From IMG/VR virus record IMGVR_UViG_3300025326_000068, positions 1 to 46,531 of that record: a stretch of DNA of 46,531 nucleotides, one strand, 5' to 3'. This document shows positions 7,147-40,657 of the stretch, in pieces. Positions within the stretch are counted from its first letter, which is position 1; every line of letters starts with the position of its first letter. Origin of the DNA: a virus. The position numbers were made by a program, and so were the translations under genes. The notes below the pieces were generated by a model. That model ran no database searches. It worked only from the letters and a program-made list of their open reading frames with translations, and was not told the origin of the DNA.

Positions 7147-7359
7147 CTAATCCAGGGCCGGCCCTGTCCAGTTCTCATCATCGCGCCGCACAAAATCAGG
7201 CTTGACGCGGCCCGCGCCGTAGTAGTCGGCGCCGTCGTCGATCGTATGTGGGCGCGGCGCGATCCAGACGGACGGGAAGATCGGATCGAGCAGCGCGGCG
7301 AGCGCATCAATAGTCGCTTTGAGAAATTCTGTATTGAGCGGCTTCGACAACTTCTCCAT
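7147..7359 (-). CDS. small protein between terminase and portal (70 aa)
   Basis: Starts at ATG 7359 because a full AGGAGGTGAT Shine-Dalgarno lies 8 nt upstream; it overlaps the end of the terminase gene by 53 nt. Its middle, TIDDGADYYGAGRVKP, resembles the portal N-terminus (TFIDDGVDYSMPLVVP), so the two may share a short terminase- or portal-tail-like segment. Function unknown. The strong ribosome site suggests it is made at a high level. Confidence 0.7.
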   Translation of the reverse strand: MEKLSKPLNTEFLKATIDALAALLDPIFPSVWIAPRPHTIDDGADYYGAGRVKPDFVRRDDENWTGPALD

Positions 7360-8692
7360 ACGCATCACCTCCTGACAGGTCTAACTCCGTGATGGCCCAC
7401 ACCAACGCGTCCATCCGGTTAGGCGAATATGCCGTTCCCGGCGCCCACGAGCACATCTCGTCTTCCAGTTCGGGGAACTGGCCGACGTGATGGACGCGGC
7501 GATGCTCGTAGTGCGCCGCGACCGGCTCGGCGCGCTGCGCTTTGCCGCGCGAGGCCGTGACCAGCTTCACGCTCGGCGCGCCGGGGATAGTCTCGATCGT
7601 ACGCGCGACCATCTCGCCGCCGAAATTGGCCTCGGCCACGAGCGCGTCAGCCTTGAGCCGGTGATAGAGCGCGACGGCGGCGGCCGCCCATATGCCGGGG
7701 CTGGCCTGTATTGTACCATCCGCCAAGATAAAGCCGTGTGTTTCCGGATAGCCCAGGCAATTACACGGCCCGCAGCCTGCCGCCACGATGCCGCAGGCGT
7801 TGCCGTCCGCCGCCCCGCTCGGATCCACGCCGACGACGACGCGCGTAAGACGCGGGGCCTCGGCCACGCGCAGGGAGTCGATCAGTTCCGGCGTCCACAG
7901 CGCGCCCGGCATGGCGTCCAGGTCTTCGGCTTCGATCTCCTGCCGGTAGGCCAGAGCCGTCATATCGTCCGTGATCTCGTCCAGCGCCGAAGCCGACAGA
8001 TGCGGATTGGCGCGGCTATGGAAATGGAACGCCGCCCAGCGGCCACGTTTATCTTTTTCCGCGCGCTTGTAGAGTTTGGCCGCATGGCGCTTGTCGCGCG
8101 CCTTGCTCACGCTGCGGCTGTGCAGTGAAGGCGGCGTGTAAACGAATACCGCGTCGCCGTCATTATCCAGGAGCATCGGCGCGCCGACATTGCCCCAGGC
8201 ATCCTCCGCCATCAATTGATATTCATCCAACAGCAAAAGATCGGCATAGTCTCCCCGCAACGTGTCGGCGTTCCAGGCGCTTTTGGCGCGGATACGGTTC
8301 TCTGTGCCGACCCGCTCGATGATGTGCAGCGTCTCATTTTTATAAAGTCGGCCCGCGTCAATCGGCGCTTGCAGGGCGGCCTTGACCTCGTGCCAGAAAC
8401 GGTCGAGCTGCTCCTGCGTCGGCGTCGCGTACAGGATGCGCCGACCGGCCAGGAACTCCCGCACCGCGAGAATGGCGACGCCGACGGTCTTGCCGCCGCG
8501 CCGCCCGGCGCGGATCACCTTGCGCTTGGCGGCGCTCTCGATAAAACGCCGCTGCTCAGGATGCGGCTCGCGGAGGCGGGCCGTGACCTGCGGCGGCAGC
8601 GCCGCCCGGCGCGCCTTCTCCGCCAGCAGGAGCGCCGCCTGTTCCCGCTCCTGACGTGGAAGCGCGAGCAAAGAGTCCAGAGAGTAGATCAT
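7307..8692 (-). CDS. terL: terminase large subunit
   Basis: 461 aa ATPase-nuclease that packages DNA into the procapsid. Visible motifs: Walker A AGRRGGKT at 62-69, Walker B LLLLDE at 152-157 with catalytic Glu157, coupling motif TPP near 187, then the RNase-H-fold nuclease: Asp290 (VVGVDPSG), Glu354 (LVAEANFGG) and Asp428 (RMDALVWA). Length is normal for the family. The start ATG at 8692 has GGAAAGAG a few nt upstream, inside the terS gene, with a long out-of-frame overlap (137 nt). Stop at 7307. Confidence 0.95.
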   Translation of the reverse strand: MIYSLDSLLALPRQEREQAALLLAEKARRAALPPQVTARLREPHPEQRRFIESAAKRKVIRAGRRGGKTVGVAILAVREFLAGRRILYATPTQEQLDRFWHEVKAALQAPIDAGRLYKNETLHIIERVGTENRIRAKSAWNADTLRGDYADLLLLDEYQLMAEDAWGNVGAPMLLDNDGDAVFVYTPPSLHSRSVSKARDKRHAAKLYKRAEKDKRGRWAAFHFHSRANPHLSASALDEITDDMTALAYRQEIEAEDLDAMPGALWTPELIDSLRVAEAPRLTRVVVGVDPSGAADGNACGIVAAGCGPCNCLGYPETHGFILADGTIQASPGIWAAAAVALYHRLKADALVAEANFGGEMVARTIETIPGAPSVKLVTASRGKAQRAEPVAAHYEHRRVHHVGQFPELEDEMCSWAPGTAYSPNRMDALVWAITELDLSGGDAYGEVVEAAQYRISQSDY

Positions 8693-9098: not shown

Positions 9099-9369
9099 TG
9101 CGAACCTTCACCCCACGGCGTGCGCCACAACCAGCACACCTCTTTGATTTGCTGTCCGTATCGGGGATTCTTCCGCAATATTCACACTCCATCGTAGAAG
9201 CGGAATCCGACGTTGATTTGTCGTTATCAACGCCTTCGATTTCGATCAACAAATCCCGTCCCGCTTTGCGGATCGTGAAATTTCCGCGCTTGCGCAGACT
9301 TATCATCGCGGGGCGGTCTAGCAATTCAGGGAACTCCACATGTTTTTCTTCGCCGGATATGAAACGCAT
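9073..9369 (-). CDS. zinc-ribbon protein with duplicated N-terminal module (98 aa)
   Basis: ATG 9369 follows GGAGATAATTGACG. The first 45 residues (MRFISGEEKHVEFPELL... RKRGNFTIRKAGRDLLIEIE) are nearly the same as the start of the protein at 21904 on the other strand. The C-terminal half is a CEYCG...RCAGCG four-cysteine zinc ribbon. The gene overlaps terS by 26 nt. A DNA- or nucleic-acid-binding or packaging accessory role is possible; no established family recognised. Confidence 0.75.
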   Translation of the reverse strand: MRFISGEEKHVEFPELLDRPAMISLRKRGNFTIRKAGRDLLIEIEGVDNDKSTSDSASTMECEYCGRIPDTDSKSKRCAGCGARRGVKVRNAEKEVKS

Positions 9370-9383
9370 CGTCAATTATCTCC
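9238..9383. repeat. inverted copy A of a duplicated 146-bp module
   Basis: Read on the minus strand from 9383, the sequence GGAGATAATTGA, the ATG, and the first approximately 43 codons closely match 21889-22036 on the plus strand, including the Shine-Dalgarno and an identical GCGCGGAAATTTCACGAT stretch. The copies are inverted and about 12.5 kb apart. Confidence 0.85.
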
Positions 9384-12567: not shown

Positions 12568-12590
12568 ATCAACTAAAAAGGAGAATCAAA

Positions 12591-12962
12591 ATGACCCCCC
12601 TTATGAAAGAAAAAATAAAGGAAGAACTCACGGATGGTCTTCTCCGTGAGTTAGGGGACAGATGGAACAACGCGCGCATCCGATGCACGCGTTCCGTGGA
12701 AGGGGTCGAGGGGGAGACCGAGGGGGAAGCATACCGGTATTATTACCGGTATGCTTCCACCGAACAGGTGGAAGACAAATCTGATCGCCCCCTAAATGGG
12801 GGGGTGAAGATAGTCGTGAACCGGCAGGGGGCGTATCGGATGAATCTTTCCACTGGGAAGGTGGAAAGATTGGGGGATTTCGGTAAGAAGAATGTTTACC
12901 CCGGTGATGGAAGCACCATCACCGTGTGGGTATTCAAATATTATCCGGAGATTGCCCCATGA
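12591..12962 (+). CDS. hairpin-studded small gene (123 aa), function unknown
   Basis: ATG 12591 has AAGGAG upstream, and the stop overlaps the next ATG (ATGA). The protein is polar with aromatic clusters (EAYRYYYRYAS) and a C-terminal beta-like half ending VWVFKYYPEIAP. No family is recognised. The striking point is at nucleotide level: the gene contains at least six short-loop perfect inverted repeats with arms of 8 to 15 bp (see the repeat entry). Its base composition is less GC-rich than its neighbours. Codon choice seems constrained by the foldbacks. Confidence 0.7.
   Translation: MTPLMKEKIKEELTDGLLRELGDRWNNARIRCTRSVEGVEGETEGEAYRYYYRYASTEQVEDKSDRPLNGGVKIVVNRQGAYRMNLSTGKVERLGDFGKKNVYPGDGSTITVWVFKYYPEIAP
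12625..12924 (+). repeat. series of perfect inverted repeats within one gene
   Basis: Perfect arms: AACTCACGGA (12625-12634/12643-12652); AACGCG with inner GCATC/GATGC (12669-12693); GGAAGCATACCGGTA (12725-12739/12744-12758, loop TTAT); CTTCCACC (12754-12761/12767-12774); CCCCC (12788-12792/12798-12802); AATCTTTCCAC (12843-12853/12861-12871); CGGTGATGG (12902-12910/12916-12924). The third and fourth share bases and exclude each other. Confidence 0.9.
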
Positions 12963-13288
12963 CCCCCGGAGTTGGTAAATCCTTCATCGATCCCGAAATG
13001 GCCGAGCAAATCCGCGCGCGCGGCCTGCCCGTCGCGGCGCACCTGTCGCCCGCGACCCAGCCGGAAGACGACGGTCGGCGCGCCGACCTGACGAATTGGG
13101 AAGCCGCTTACCTGGAAACGATGAACAAGTTGCGCGCCTGCCGCTGGTCGCATCGCGTCCAGGCCGAGGCCGCTGACCGCGCCGAGTTGGAAGTGAAACG
13201 CCTGCGGACGGAGAATACCCTGTTGCGCGCGGCGCTGGCTGAGTGGCATCGCTCCGACCGCAAGGCGAGCGCGCCGCCACGACCTTGA
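12959..13288 (+). CDS. coiled-coil protein (109 aa)
   Basis: ATG 12959 overlaps the previous stop (ATGA). A disordered, Pro-containing N-terminal half is followed by a helix with heptads (WEAAYLETMNKLRACRW to LEVKRLRTENTLLRAALAEW). It resembles small phage coiled-coil proteins of unknown role in early operons. Confidence 0.65.
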   Translation: MTPGVGKSFIDPEMAEQIRARGLPVAAHLSPATQPEDDGRRADLTNWEAAYLETMNKLRACRWSHRVQAEAADRAELEVKRLRTENTLLRAALAEWHRSDRKASAPPRP

Positions 13289-18657: not shown

Positions 18658-18684
18658 CGATCTTGGCTGAGCCAAAAAAGAAGG

Positions 18685-18784
18685 GATACCAGGCATACTG
18701 GTATCAACTGGTATCAACTGTGATGATACCGGTCAAACTGCATACAGTCGCATTATTTCTGGTATATGGTATCAAGTGGTACCA
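18685..18784. repeat. iteron-like cluster of TGGTATCA repeats, putative origin
   Basis: Copies of TGGTATCA or its complement: 18685-18691 (reverse), 18699-18706, 18709-18716 (the last two form tandem ACTGGTATCA units), 18724-18730 (reverse), 18760-18765 (partial), 18767-18774, and the palindromic TGGTACCA 18777-18784. Seven sites in 100 bp directly after the primase-helicase gene are typical for initiator-binding iterons or an operator. No gene in 18658-18869. Confidence 0.7.
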
Positions 18785-18790
18785 ACCCGG

Positions 18791-18829
18791 CTTTTTCCCC
18801 GTCTCTCTCTAAGAGAGACGGGGAAAAAG
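18791..18829. repeat. 39-bp perfect palindrome next to the iterons
   Basis: CTTTTTCCCCGTCTCTCT (18791-18808), loop CTA, and its exact complement (18812-18829). The stem includes the T5 and A5 runs, so no U-tract follows the stem as a standard terminator needs. It could extrude as a cruciform at the origin, or act as an unusual transcription stop. Confidence 0.75.
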
Positions 18830-18869
18830 TCAAAAAGCGGGCGGAATGTGAGAACTGTTTGATTGGCTT

Positions 18870-19331
18870 ATGATGGAACTTTATTCGAGGATGTTGGCTT
18901 ACTTAGAAAAGCTTCCGGCGGCCATCTCAGGCTCCGGCGGCCACAACGCGACCCTGCGCGTGGCCTGCGAATGCTTCCGCTTCGGCCTGGAGCGCGTCGA
19001 GGCTTGGGACGCGCTCCAATGGTACAACGCCAATCGTTGCAGCCCGGCGTGGAATGAGAAGGAATTGCGCCACAAACTGGACGACGCGGAAAAGATCGTC
19101 TGCCGCACGGGGGAACAGGGCGCGCGCGTCCACATCGCCGCAGGCCGCCGCGCCCTGCGCGCCTTCGTCCCGCCGCCGCCTCCCGAACGCTACCGCGGGC
19201 GCATGGTCGCGCCGACGATCCCGGTATGCCAGCGTAGCGCGGCGGACGAAGAACTTTGGTGGGCGAAAGTCGCCCAGGAGCGCGGCGCGGCGCTGGAAGC
19301 TTGGGACCATCCCAAGCGGAGGCCGGAATGA
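18870..19331 (+). CDS. PriCT-like (primase C-terminal) protein (153 aa)
   Basis: The first 75 residues, YLEKLPAAISGSGGHNATLRVACECFRFGL followed by ALQWYNANRCSPAWNEKELRHKLDDAEK, match the helical PriCT-type domain that in many phages is attached to the primase. Here it stands alone after the primase-helicase and the iteron region. The C-terminal half is Pro-rich and basic. It probably works with the primase. Its stop overlaps the next ATG (ATGA). No strong ribosome site upstream. Confidence 0.6.
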   Translation: MMELYSRMLAYLEKLPAAISGSGGHNATLRVACECFRFGLERVEAWDALQWYNANRCSPAWNEKELRHKLDDAEKIVCRTGEQGARVHIAAGRRALRAFVPPPPPERYRGRMVAPTIPVCQRSAADEELWWAKVAQERGAALEAWDHPKRRPE

Positions 19332-21209: not shown

Positions 21210-21901
21210 ATGACAACGAGTTCCGACTCAAGCTCCAGGCCGCCCACCAGTCGAAGGACGACGGCGCCTGGGCACTGTGCGAGTTCTGCCTGGAAGCGCG
21301 CGAAGCCGGATACCCGCAGTGGGACGAGCGCATCGCCGCCTACGAGCGTCGCAGCCCTCGCACGGTACGCGATTGGGCAAGAGCTGCGGAATTCCGCCAG
21401 AACATAATCGGGGTGATGGGAGACTTGACCTATTCATTCTACCTGGTCGCGGCGCGCCATCTGGATCGTATCCACGTGTCCGATGTCATTCAATTGATGG
21501 AGACATGGGCCGTGACTCCCGGCGCGACGCTGGAAGCCTTCGCCGCGCAGCTGCACGACATGGCGGGCGGCGGCGCGGATGCGGACGCGGACGCGGAGCT
21601 GCTCTCAGGCAAGCTCCGCCGGTGGCACTCCGAGATTCTGGGCGAGATCGACCGCGCGCCGGCGCGGCTGCGCGACGCGCTGCACCTGGCTGCCGACGTG
21701 CTTGCGGATGCGAAGTGGGGGGCGGACGATGACTCCGGCGCGCGCGTGATGGAGATTTGGAGCGCGCGCGAAACGGCGCTCTATCTTGAGCGCCATCCTG
21801 CCGATCATCCGCGTTTCGTCGCGCTCACGGGCCGCGCCTGGGCGGGCGTGGCGCGGGTGGTGGTCAGGGCCAGCAGGGAGAACGGGAGCGGAGATAATTG
21901 A
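21206..21901 (+). CDS. helical protein following the nuclease (231 aa)
   Basis: ATGA overlap at the start. N-terminal helices include a HTH-like FCLEAREAGYPQWDERIAAYERRSPRTVRDWARAA (about 27-60). The centre has a Gly/Ala/Asp hinge (GGGADADADAELL), and the C-terminal half is helical. Replication-associated or regulatory function is possible; nothing decisive is seen. Confidence 0.55.
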   Translation: MNDNEFRLKLQAAHQSKDDGAWALCEFCLEAREAGYPQWDERIAAYERRSPRTVRDWARAAEFRQNIIGVMGDLTYSFYLVAARHLDRIHVSDVIQLMETWAVTPGATLEAFAAQLHDMAGGGADADADAELLSGKLRRWHSEILGEIDRAPARLRDALHLAADVLADAKWGADDDSGARVMEIWSARETALYLERHPADHPRFVALTGRAWAGVARVVVRASRENGSGDN

Positions 21902-22036
21902 TAATGCGTTTCATATCCGGTGAAGAAAAACACAGGCAGTTCCCAGAACTTACAGACAAGCCTGAGACAGTAAATCTGTATGAGCGCGGAAATTTCACGA
22001 TTAACAAAGCAGGACGAGATTTACTGATCGAGATCG
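21889..22036. repeat. inverted copy B of a duplicated module
   Basis: Plus-strand counterpart of 9238-9383: GGAGATAATTGA, ATG, FISGEEKH segment and the RGNFTI.KAGRDLLIEI coding block, with the same upstream ribosome site. Identity is high in 5' and central blocks and lower between. Confidence 0.85.
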
Positions 22037-38072: not shown

Positions 38073-38950
38073 GCTATTTTTAACTCTCGGACGCGCCGCA
38101 GGAGTTCCAACGCGCGCGCGTCCCAGGTGTACGATTTGACCTTTTCCTTGCCCGCCGCCGCCAGCGAGCGCCAGCGGTCATTCACCAGGAGCGCGTGCGC
38201 CGCTTCGACGGCCTCGGGCGCGGAAGCATAGGGCCAGAAGTCCGTCCCGGCGATGAAGCCCAGCCGGTCAATGTCCGGCGCGGTATCGGCCAGGACGCAG
38301 CATCCCTGCGCCATGTTCTCGAAAAAGCGCGTCGTCAGATCGCCGTAGGAGCTCCGTACCAACGCGATCTTGGCGCGGTTGTAGAGCGCGTTGTACTCGT
38401 CGAAGAGTGGGCCCAGCATGCCCACCGTATTTTTTAGTCCGCTGGCATCCATCGCAGCCAGGATCTCCACCCGTTCGCTGTAGGGATAGCCAATTATCAG
38501 CACGTCAATGTCGCGCTCCCTGCCCAAGTCGGTATGCATTTCTGGATCATAACCCGGCGGCAGCCAGTAGGCGTTCGGCTCGGAAGAGCGCGCGCCCCAG
38601 GAGTGGGCGAAGAACATAGCGTCGTAATCCGCGCTAGCATAATCGCGCACGTGGTTATCCATGCCCCACAGGATGAGCGGAACGCCATTGATCCGATGGC
38701 CGGCATAGGCAGATTCGGCGTGAATGACTAAATCGGGATGGAATGTTCGGCGCGTTCCGGGAGCAAAGCCATCTTCCCAATCGGGCTTCCAGACGTATCG
38801 TTCGTCCACTTCCATCCCCCAGATTTTTGTCCCGGTTGAATGGCCCGCCGTCTGCACGTCGTGGCCGAGCCGCCGGAAGGCGCGCGCCATGTAGCGGCCC
38901 GAGGCGACGGGATAGTGGATGCAGGTGATGAGGATGCGGAGCGAAGTCAT
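38069..38950 (-). CDS. CgeB-like glycosyltransferase (293 aa)
   Basis: Start 38950 fixed by ATGA overlap with the HNH stop. GT-B-like: LRILITCIHYPVASGRYMARAF, HPDLVIHAESAYAG, and the C-terminal RSSYGDLTTRFFENMAQGC (glycosyltransferase E-type acceptor region with FFENMA) plus LGFIAGTDFWPYASA. This matches CgeB/GT1-type proteins common in phage and spore-coat glycan operons. Transfers an unknown sugar. Confidence 0.75.
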   Translation of the reverse strand: MTSLRILITCIHYPVASGRYMARAFRRLGHDVQTAGHSTGTKIWGMEVDERYVWKPDWEDGFAPGTRRTFHPDLVIHAESAYAGHRINGVPLILWGMDNHVRDYASADYDAMFFAHSWGARSSEPNAYWLPPGYDPEMHTDLGRERDIDVLIIGYPYSERVEILAAMDASGLKNTVGMLGPLFDEYNALYNRAKIALVRSSYGDLTTRFFENMAQGCCVLADTAPDIDRLGFIAGTDFWPYASAPEAVEAAHALLVNDRWRSLAAAGKEKVKSYTWDARALELLRRVRELKIA

Positions 38951-39660
38951 AAAAGCCGTCCGTTCCATTCGTGAGGCAGTTTGTCTCGTCTTGAAGTATT
39001 ACAGGACGGGCAGCTGATCACAATGTTTTCCGGGCCATTGCTGCCACCCCGCGCTAACGGTATGCGATGGTCAACATGGTACTGCTGCCCCAATTCGTAA
39101 CTACACCACCAGCATAAACCCTTTTGCATTGTGTATTGTTTCTTGGTATCTGCTGCTGTATGTGTGCCAGCCGCCTCGCGCTTGCGTGCGCGGTAGTTCC
39201 TTGTACGGGCCAGATAGGTATCACGGTTTCGCTGATACCGGAGTCGGGATAATTCTTTGGCCCTTTCCGGGTTATTAGCCTTGCGATTTTTATCAGCCTC
39301 TTTCTTTTGCTCCCGATGATTTCTGGCATACTCACGCGAATAAGCACGGCTTCTTTCGATATGCTTCCACTTGCATTTCAAAGTAATGGCACGAACCTTA
39401 TCTACGTTGGCCGCTGCCCAACGTCTTGCGTTCGCTCGATGCTGCTCTTTATTTTCCTGATACCACTGATTTGCTCTTGCCTTAGATCGCTCAGGGTTAT
39501 TTGCATTCCAAATTCTTGTCCGAGCGGCTGTACATGGCTTGCAATATGATGCAAGCCATACTTTGTCACCCTTCCGGCATGGTGAAAAGTATTCGGTTGT
39601 AGCAGGAAGTGATCGGGAACAGTCCTTGCAGGTTTTGTAATGCGGGATAGAATCAATCAT
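38947..39660 (-). CDS. HNH endonuclease inserted in the glycan cassette (237 aa)
   Basis: Zn motif CKDCSRSLP..YCKPC at the start, a long helical Arg/Asn/Lys-rich spacer, and HNH core LCWWCSYELG, VDHRIPLARGGSNGPENIV, CPSCNTSRRDKLP. Typical of the T4 endonuclease VII-like/homing HNH group. Less GC-rich than its neighbours. ATG 39660 is preferred; longer starts exist. The 91 bp between it and the GT2 stop contain no other gene. Overlaps the CgeB ATG (ATGA). Confidence 0.85.
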   Translation of the reverse strand: MIDSIPHYKTCKDCSRSLPATTEYFSPCRKGDKVWLASYCKPCTAARTRIWNANNPERSKARANQWYQENKEQHRANARRWAAANVDKVRAITLKCKWKHIERSRAYSREYARNHREQKKEADKNRKANNPERAKELSRLRYQRNRDTYLARTRNYRARKREAAGTHTAADTKKQYTMQKGLCWWCSYELGQQYHVDHRIPLARGGSNGPENIVISCPSCNTSRRDKLPHEWNGRLL

Positions 39661-39751
39661 GCTGGACTTCTCGTGTAGGTTCAGCCACGCTCCGGGATGT
39701 TTCCGCATCGCCGGAGCACTTCCTATAGTATAGAACATTATGGCGCTCACA

Positions 39752-40657
39752 TCAATATGCCACATGGATTATCGAGGTGTCCGGCGTAATGCGCCGATCC
39801 CATTTTTCGTGGAAGCGTAATGAGTTGGCGCGGAAACTTTCCGCCGTCGCCGCGTTGGATGCGCCGACTCGATGCGTGAAGACGGCTTCCGGGCAGTACC
39901 AGACTTCAAAGCCGCGCAGTTTCACGCGCTCGCACAAATCCACGTCTTCAAAATAGCCGCGTCCGTAACCAATATCAAACAGACCCGCTGAAGCAAACAG
40001 ATTATTTCGGATCGCCAGCGCCGCGCCGGTCGTCCAGGAGACGCGCTCGGCAATATTCACGCGCCAATCGTCGGCGGCGAAACCAATATAGCGATGGAAC
40101 GGGCCTTTGCCGCCGTCGTAGAGTCCGCCGCAGGATTGGATGGAATACGCGGGCGGGCGCGGCGCGGTCAAACCGGGTAATGCGCCCGTCCCATTCGGGC
40201 CGAGCGGGAAAACGAGTTTCGGCCCGACGATGCCCACGTAGGCGCGTTCGTCGAACATCCCCATAAGCGGCCCGAACCAGCCGGGCTGCGCCTGCGTGTC
40301 CTGGTTCAGAAAGAACAGCACGTCGCCCCCGGCGCGCGCCGCGCCTGCATTGCAATTGCCGGCAAAGCCCAGGTTGCGCGGATTGCGCGCCACCTGCGCC
40401 GGCGGGCCGATGATCTCGGTCAGGTCGACGTCCGGGCTGGCGTCATCCTGCACCAGGATTTCCATCCGGCCGGCCATCCCCTCCGCGCCCGCCGTCGCTA
40501 CCAGCGATTTCAGGCACAAGATGAGAGCCTTCAGGTCGTTGTAGGCCGGGATCACGATTGACAATCTCAGGCTCGCGCCCATCACCGGGGCGGCTCGCGG
40601 GGCCGCGTGTATCGCTAAGTTGGTTGGCGTCAGGGGCAGGGCTTGGGGCAGGCTCAT
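39752..40657 (-). CDS. GT2-family glycosyltransferase (301 aa)
   Basis: GT-A start LRLSIVIPAYNDLKALILCL, QDDASPDV, VARNPRNLGFAGNCNAGAARAGGDVLFFLNQDTQ (the DxD-like NQD), and FEDVDLCERVKLRG with an acceptor-side EVWYCPEAVFTH. Closest in style to rhamnosyl- or glucosyltransferases of surface glycans. Start 40657 overlaps the GT4 end by 215 nt; ATG 40582, nearer to the fold, is an alternative. Confidence 0.85.
   Translation of the reverse strand: MSLPQALPLTPTNLAIHAAPRAAPVMGASLRLSIVIPAYNDLKALILCLKSLVATAGAEGMAGRMEILVQDDASPDVDLTEIIGPPAQVARNPRNLGFAGNCNAGAARAGGDVLFFLNQDTQAQPGWFGPLMGMFDERAYVGIVGPKLVFPLGPNGTGALPGLTAPRPPAYSIQSCGGLYDGGKGPFHRYIGFAADDWRVNIAERVSWTTGAALAIRNNLFASAGLFDIGYGRGYFEDVDLCERVKLRGFEVWYCPEAVFTHRVGASNAATAESFRANSLRFHEKWDRRITPDTSIIHVAY

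Follow-up and report, generated by a model that had tools for sequence, protein, structure and literature searches.

In the 46,531-nt stretch of viral DNA analysed here (the window), which is a tailed-virus genome or a fragment of one, with genes for portal, terminase, capsid protease and tape-measure, there is a short orphan open reading frame, P0001, through which small inverted repeats are tiled. The features at this locus are:

12580 to 12584, + strand: Shine-Dalgarno-like GGAG/AGGAG, seen in the sequence just 5′ of the P0001 ATG
12591 to 12962, + strand: P0001, orphan open reading frame of 372 nt and 123 amino acids; its TGA stop is shared in part with the start codon (ATG, 12959) of the following gene
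12625 to 12652: perfect hairpin, 10-bp arms, loop of 8, codon register 2-2, pair probability 0.96
12664 to 12695: imperfect hairpin, GGAAC(AAC)GCG-C-GCAT/CCG/ATGC-A-CGCGTTCC, from sequence and folds
12725 to 12758: perfect hairpin, 15-bp arms, loop of 4, register 3-3, pair probability 0.80
12754 to 12774: perfect hairpin (HP3), 8-bp arms, loop of 5, register 3-3, pair probability 0.70
12788 to 12802: perfect hairpin, 5-bp C/G arms, loop of 5, register 1-1, weak
12843 to 12871: perfect hairpin (HP5), 11-bp arms, loop of 7, register 3-3, pair probability 0.96
12902 to 12924: perfect hairpin, 9-bp arms, loop of 5, register 2-2, pair probability 1.00
12959 to 13288, + strand: downstream gene, 109 amino acids, without a PHROG match, with an ATGA overlap with the P0001 stop codon

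The six perfect arm pairs, with loops of 4–8 nt, that a sequence-only reading had picked out are all present where it placed them. The longer imperfect foldback that it gave as 12669–12693 is there too, its extent being best read as 12664–12695, with 12 pairs, a CCG loop, one C.A mismatch and a 3-nt in-frame tandem AAC duplication. P0001 thus has five perfect hairpins whose arms reach 8 bp or more, a weak one of 5 bp and an imperfect one. The hairpin with 15-bp arms encodes EAYRYYYRYAS and overlaps HP3 by 5 nt, so that the two are partly mutually exclusive, and the 5-bp hairpin is outcompeted by long-range pairing (ensemble pair probability 0.03). HP5 and HP3 (at 12755–12773) have TTCCAC-N7-GTGGAA in common. 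At none of the P0001 hairpins does a U-run follow directly, which rules them out as intrinsic terminators.

Coding status and copies of P0001

P0001 is probably a translated gene, to judge by the Shine-Dalgarno sequence, the ATGA overlap and a codon score that is the highest of all six frames, the other five having stops. That the locus should be primarily a structured non-coding RNA, with its open reading frame incidental, seems very improbable. Its folding is strong and dense and its codon use atypical (GC3 of 0.60 as against about 0.78 for most genes of the virus, which may mean that P0001 was acquired), but the run of 123 open codons with translation signals is difficult to square with such an RNA, as are the closure of every alternative frame, the restriction of the sole indel trace, the AAC duplication, to 3 nt, and the lack of any Rfam 15 match at gathering score for the locus. 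Single-sequence structure prediction for the protein was poor (mean pLDDT 42).

No diverged homologues were found in Pfam, PHROGs, NCBIfam, PADLOC, PDB or phage and plasmid records; viral contigs gave identical copies only, one scan of genome contigs gave none, and nor did about 800 genomes of two phyla, in searches that had no positive control. Within the stretch covered by its contig, a terminase relative (L009, 89% amino acid identity) lacks both P0001 and any hairpin cluster. The window's own terminase (7307–8692) is closest to that of Methanosarcina virus MetMV (58.8% identical) and also has relatives in MAGs of Methanoperedens, Chloroflexi, Acidobacteria and others, a spread over several bacterial and archaeal groups that suggests wide exchange. 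Elsewhere in the window a gene at 38947–39765, with a GC3 of 0.48 against about 0.78 for the genome, is likely a recent import, and two 147-nt segments, at approximately 9237–9383 and at 21890–22036, match at about 78% with one of them inverted.

Amplification is known to produce foldback chimeras as an artefact. However, P0001 occurs without a single difference in two further IMG/VR contigs from other metagenome assemblies; over 6 kb, one of these contigs shows 3 mismatches and a gap relative to the window, all outside the gene. As the same gene was recovered in two other assemblies, an assembly error behind the hairpins, which the sequence-only reading had named as a way in which it could be wrong, is unlikely, and an artefact of either kind can be almost entirely discounted.

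Hairpins and folding against chance

The RNA fold of P0001 (−165.8 kcal/mol) lies far below that of dinucleotide shuffles (−119.9, sd 5.9; z −7.8), 0 of 100 of which fold as well, and below that of synonymous-codon permutations in which the protein is fixed (−122.5, sd 6.3; z −6.9). When the count is of perfect hairpins whose arms have 8 bp or more and whose loops measure 3–10, the synonymous permutations have a mean of 0.16 and, in 5000, a maximum of 2, where five are observed. The earlier suspicion that such arms are not expected by chance is therefore borne out, with z about −6.8 for folding against codon-shuffled controls. Permutation of codon order gives a fold z of −8.4 and a mean of 0.04 hairpins. 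Part of the complementarity thus lies in the protein sequence itself, and the hairpins are not merely a matter of codon choice. Among the 1688 open reading frames with 90 codons or more that the window and related loci contain (1.25 Mb), 1486 have no such hairpin, 174 have one, 21 two and 6 three, and P0001 ranks first with five; the three-hairpin frames include, besides methyltransferases, spurious ones over intergenic repeats.

One way to account for this excess is that the mRNA, or a replicating single-stranded DNA, must fold into the array, with selection removing single changes; the structure could, for instance, slow or gate translation, protect against nucleases or provide binding sites for phage proteins. 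This is a substantial possibility, though on the less probable side. It would fit the concentration of hairpins in one gene, the formation of five of the six perfect hairpins with probability 0.7–1.0 while the Shine-Dalgarno region is open (12574–12590, mean unpaired probability 0.74 in the ensemble fold), and the sequence common to HP3 and HP5, as for a recognition motif. A selected mRNA fold would, though, be expected to show a larger excess in the sense direction, because G.U pairs contribute there. Measured against one set of synonymous permutations, z is −6.7 for sense and −8.1 for antisense; the 17 kcal/mol by which the two folds differ in absolute terms is compositional. With the antisense excess at least as strong, the folding excess of P0001 is not mRNA-specific: the array is strand-symmetric and Watson-Crick in nature. 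This tells against selected coding mRNA structure and is still compatible with a role as single-stranded DNA. The lack of an Rfam match and the exclusion of terminators also count against a selected fold. Of the roles that the sequence-only reading offered, a packaging signal and a dsRNA-like decoy are conceivable but drew no support from these analyses.

The codon registers of the perfect hairpins are mixed, all three being present (2-2, 3-3, 3-3, 1-1, 3-3 and 2-2). Register 3-3 leaves the protein least freedom, but codon composition by itself makes short repeats in that register common (PMC6649704), so that the register pattern is weak evidence.

Methyltransferase linkers and other hairpin loci

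As P0001 is without a diverged homologue, analogues were sought in other loci, 108 in all, which had mostly been collected through the terminase and amount to 1.19 Mb with 0.21 hairpins per kb. The scan yielded one further coding hairpin cluster, in an adenine-type DNA methyltransferase (L061). The clusters in L148, L060, L034, L021 and L098/L099 were rejected as coding analogues, since they lay between genes, resembled promoters or terminators, or fell in spurious open reading frames; that of L148 includes, at L148:449-640, an intergenic, iteron-like array in which TTTTGCAAAAGG palindromes precede a methyltransferase gene. In the window itself the intergenic 18660–18870, after the primase gene, has repeated GGTATC/GATACC palindromes and, at 18791–18829, a perfect hairpin with 18-bp arms, CTTTTTCCCCGTCTCTCT; it is possibly a replication origin or a bidirectional terminator. 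An operator or origin connection for ATACCGGTAT, which resembles the GGTATC repeats at 18690–18790, was dropped because the match excess is weak. The hairpin-bearing linkers, all after DPPYG in phage DNA methyltransferases, are:

L061:343-531: linker with three hairpins
L120:1600-1790: linker with the same three hairpins
L207:597-791: linker with one hairpin, located where L061 and L120 have their first

The L061 hairpins are perfect and in frame (12 bp with a loop of 3, 10 with 4, and 12 with 4) and lie between the DPPYG motif and GDD, a stretch of 63 amino acids as against 28 in most related methyltransferases; all but one of those lack a hairpin there. L120, a relative with 68% amino acid identity in the linker part, keeps all three, and comparison of the 34 stem pairs finds 27 unchanged, 5 changed on both arms, 2 broken (both at stem ends) and none G.U. 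The double changes (A-T>T-A, G-C>C-G, T-A>A-T, T-A>G-C and A-T>C-G) are transversions without exception, a kind of change that does not pass through G.U in a single step, and several of the five alter the amino acid. In the third methyltransferase, L207 (44%), the hairpin has 13 bp. Over the ten pairs shared by all three sequences, with arms hand-aligned around the loop, 10 of 10 are intact, four with two-sided changes and none with one-sided. Three sequences are few, and the covariation score was equalled in 8 of 500 shuffles, while slid controls gave none. As the stems were found as perfect repeats, the search itself accounts for some of the lack of G.U. In these genes the two arms change in concert, and base pairing is better preserved than the protein. 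The linker is rare, with one weak match in about 800 genomes and none in phage records.

Like P0001, the methyltransferase linkers have one or several perfect in-frame hairpins (here with arms of 9–13 bp and loops of 3–5) in a tolerant coding stretch; unlike it, they belong to a recognisable enzyme with diverged homologues, and their sequences are unrelated to P0001. For a selected structure it counts that L061, L120 and L207 retain a stem at one position despite amino acid change, and strict selection could yield the same two-armed pattern if intermediates were rare; the lack of G.U intermediates and the restriction of double changes to transversions count the other way. The broader proposition, that P0001 must fold into tandem hairpins with structure over protein as the main object of selection, and that the methyltransferase-linker tracts are a general regulatory device, strikes us as rather unlikely.

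Could the hairpins instead be mobile, repeatedly inserted in frame? The palindromic elements of Rickettsia are dispersed, related and transposable, and lie in frame inside protein genes (PMC6649704), as do the palindromes of P0001. The in-frame hairpins in the expanded L061 linker and the similarity of HP3 to HP5 would suit such an origin. However, the P0001 hairpins differ from one another in sequence and length, and related copies of them are not scattered over the genome; in the viral collection the 26-nt core of the 15-bp hairpin turns up only in copies of this virus, and once per genome. Insertion of such elements is accordingly improbable.

Template switching as a possible source of the array

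The reading that we favour, and to which we would give about an even chance, is that P0001 is a translated, sequence-tolerant orphan in which in-frame palindromes have accumulated and been upheld by template-switch conversion without a selected function. During DNA synthesis a nascent strand would fold back on a quasipalindrome and copy its own other arm; this could create short perfect hairpins, and recurrent conversion would keep both arms matched. Template switching is favoured as the putative molecular step because the perfect arms exceed synonymous permutations, show no mRNA-strand or G.U preference and stand in mixed registers that do not match wobble-position tuning, because loops are of 4–8 nt and arms near-perfect, and because the methyltransferase arms change on both sides without G.U while the protein changes. 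Two-armed change without G.U intermediates is a prediction of quasipalindrome template-switch conversion (PMC8794818, PMC8604942). If the same process made the P0001 array, as the analogue suggests, its hairpins need have no function; the genes being unrelated, transfer from the methyltransferases to P0001 is only an inference. The reading is weakened in that the dense array is in only one gene of a 46.5-kb virus: neighbouring orphan genes should tolerate changes too, and a general mutational process should be less local. It is weakened also in that P0001 is known only as identical copies, concerted change of the arms being seen in the analogue alone. The sequence-only reading had left the choice between selection and a template-switch mechanism; strand symmetry, the three registers and the two-armed transversions in methyltransferases with changing protein lean to the latter, with selection still a strong rival.

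There are precedents. In Nematomorpha mitochondria, palindromes exist within working genes, their arms evolve in concert, and template-switch conversion has been proposed (PMC6649704). As there, P0001, which is presumably translated, has perfect inverted repeats in its reading frame, in several codon registers and beyond codon-preserving chance. The nematomorph arms change together and alter amino acids, as is seen here in the L061/L120/L207 analogue. Those arms, though, are of 15–142 bp and in conserved respiratory genes of animal mitochondria, whereas in P0001 one hairpin reaches 15 bp, the rest having 5–11, with loops of 4–8, tiled through one tailed-virus orphan gene. In yeast genes template switching homogenises arms with non-synonymous changes (PMC8604942), and in RNA genes it gives multibase compensatory changes (PMC8794818); arm homogenisation, multibase or non-synonymous change and short loops are alike, but those are single events inferred on trees, whereas P0001 is an array without homologues in which the event itself is unseen. 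Perfect inverted repeats in 118,019 genomes are concentrated intergenically and around gene ends (PMC13155455). No report of hairpin arrays of the P0001 kind in phage genes was found in the open-access full-text literature, a silence that is not proof of novelty.

It is suggested that palindromes within working genes owe their origin and repair to copying errors (or selection) and not to codon tuning. A caution follows: in coding DNA, compensatory changes that come in pairs are not necessarily a sign of functional RNA. Tailed-virus arrays, whose stems persist as the protein changes, offer a compact system in which to measure template-switch conversion against selection, for which comparative data and simple recoding would suffice.
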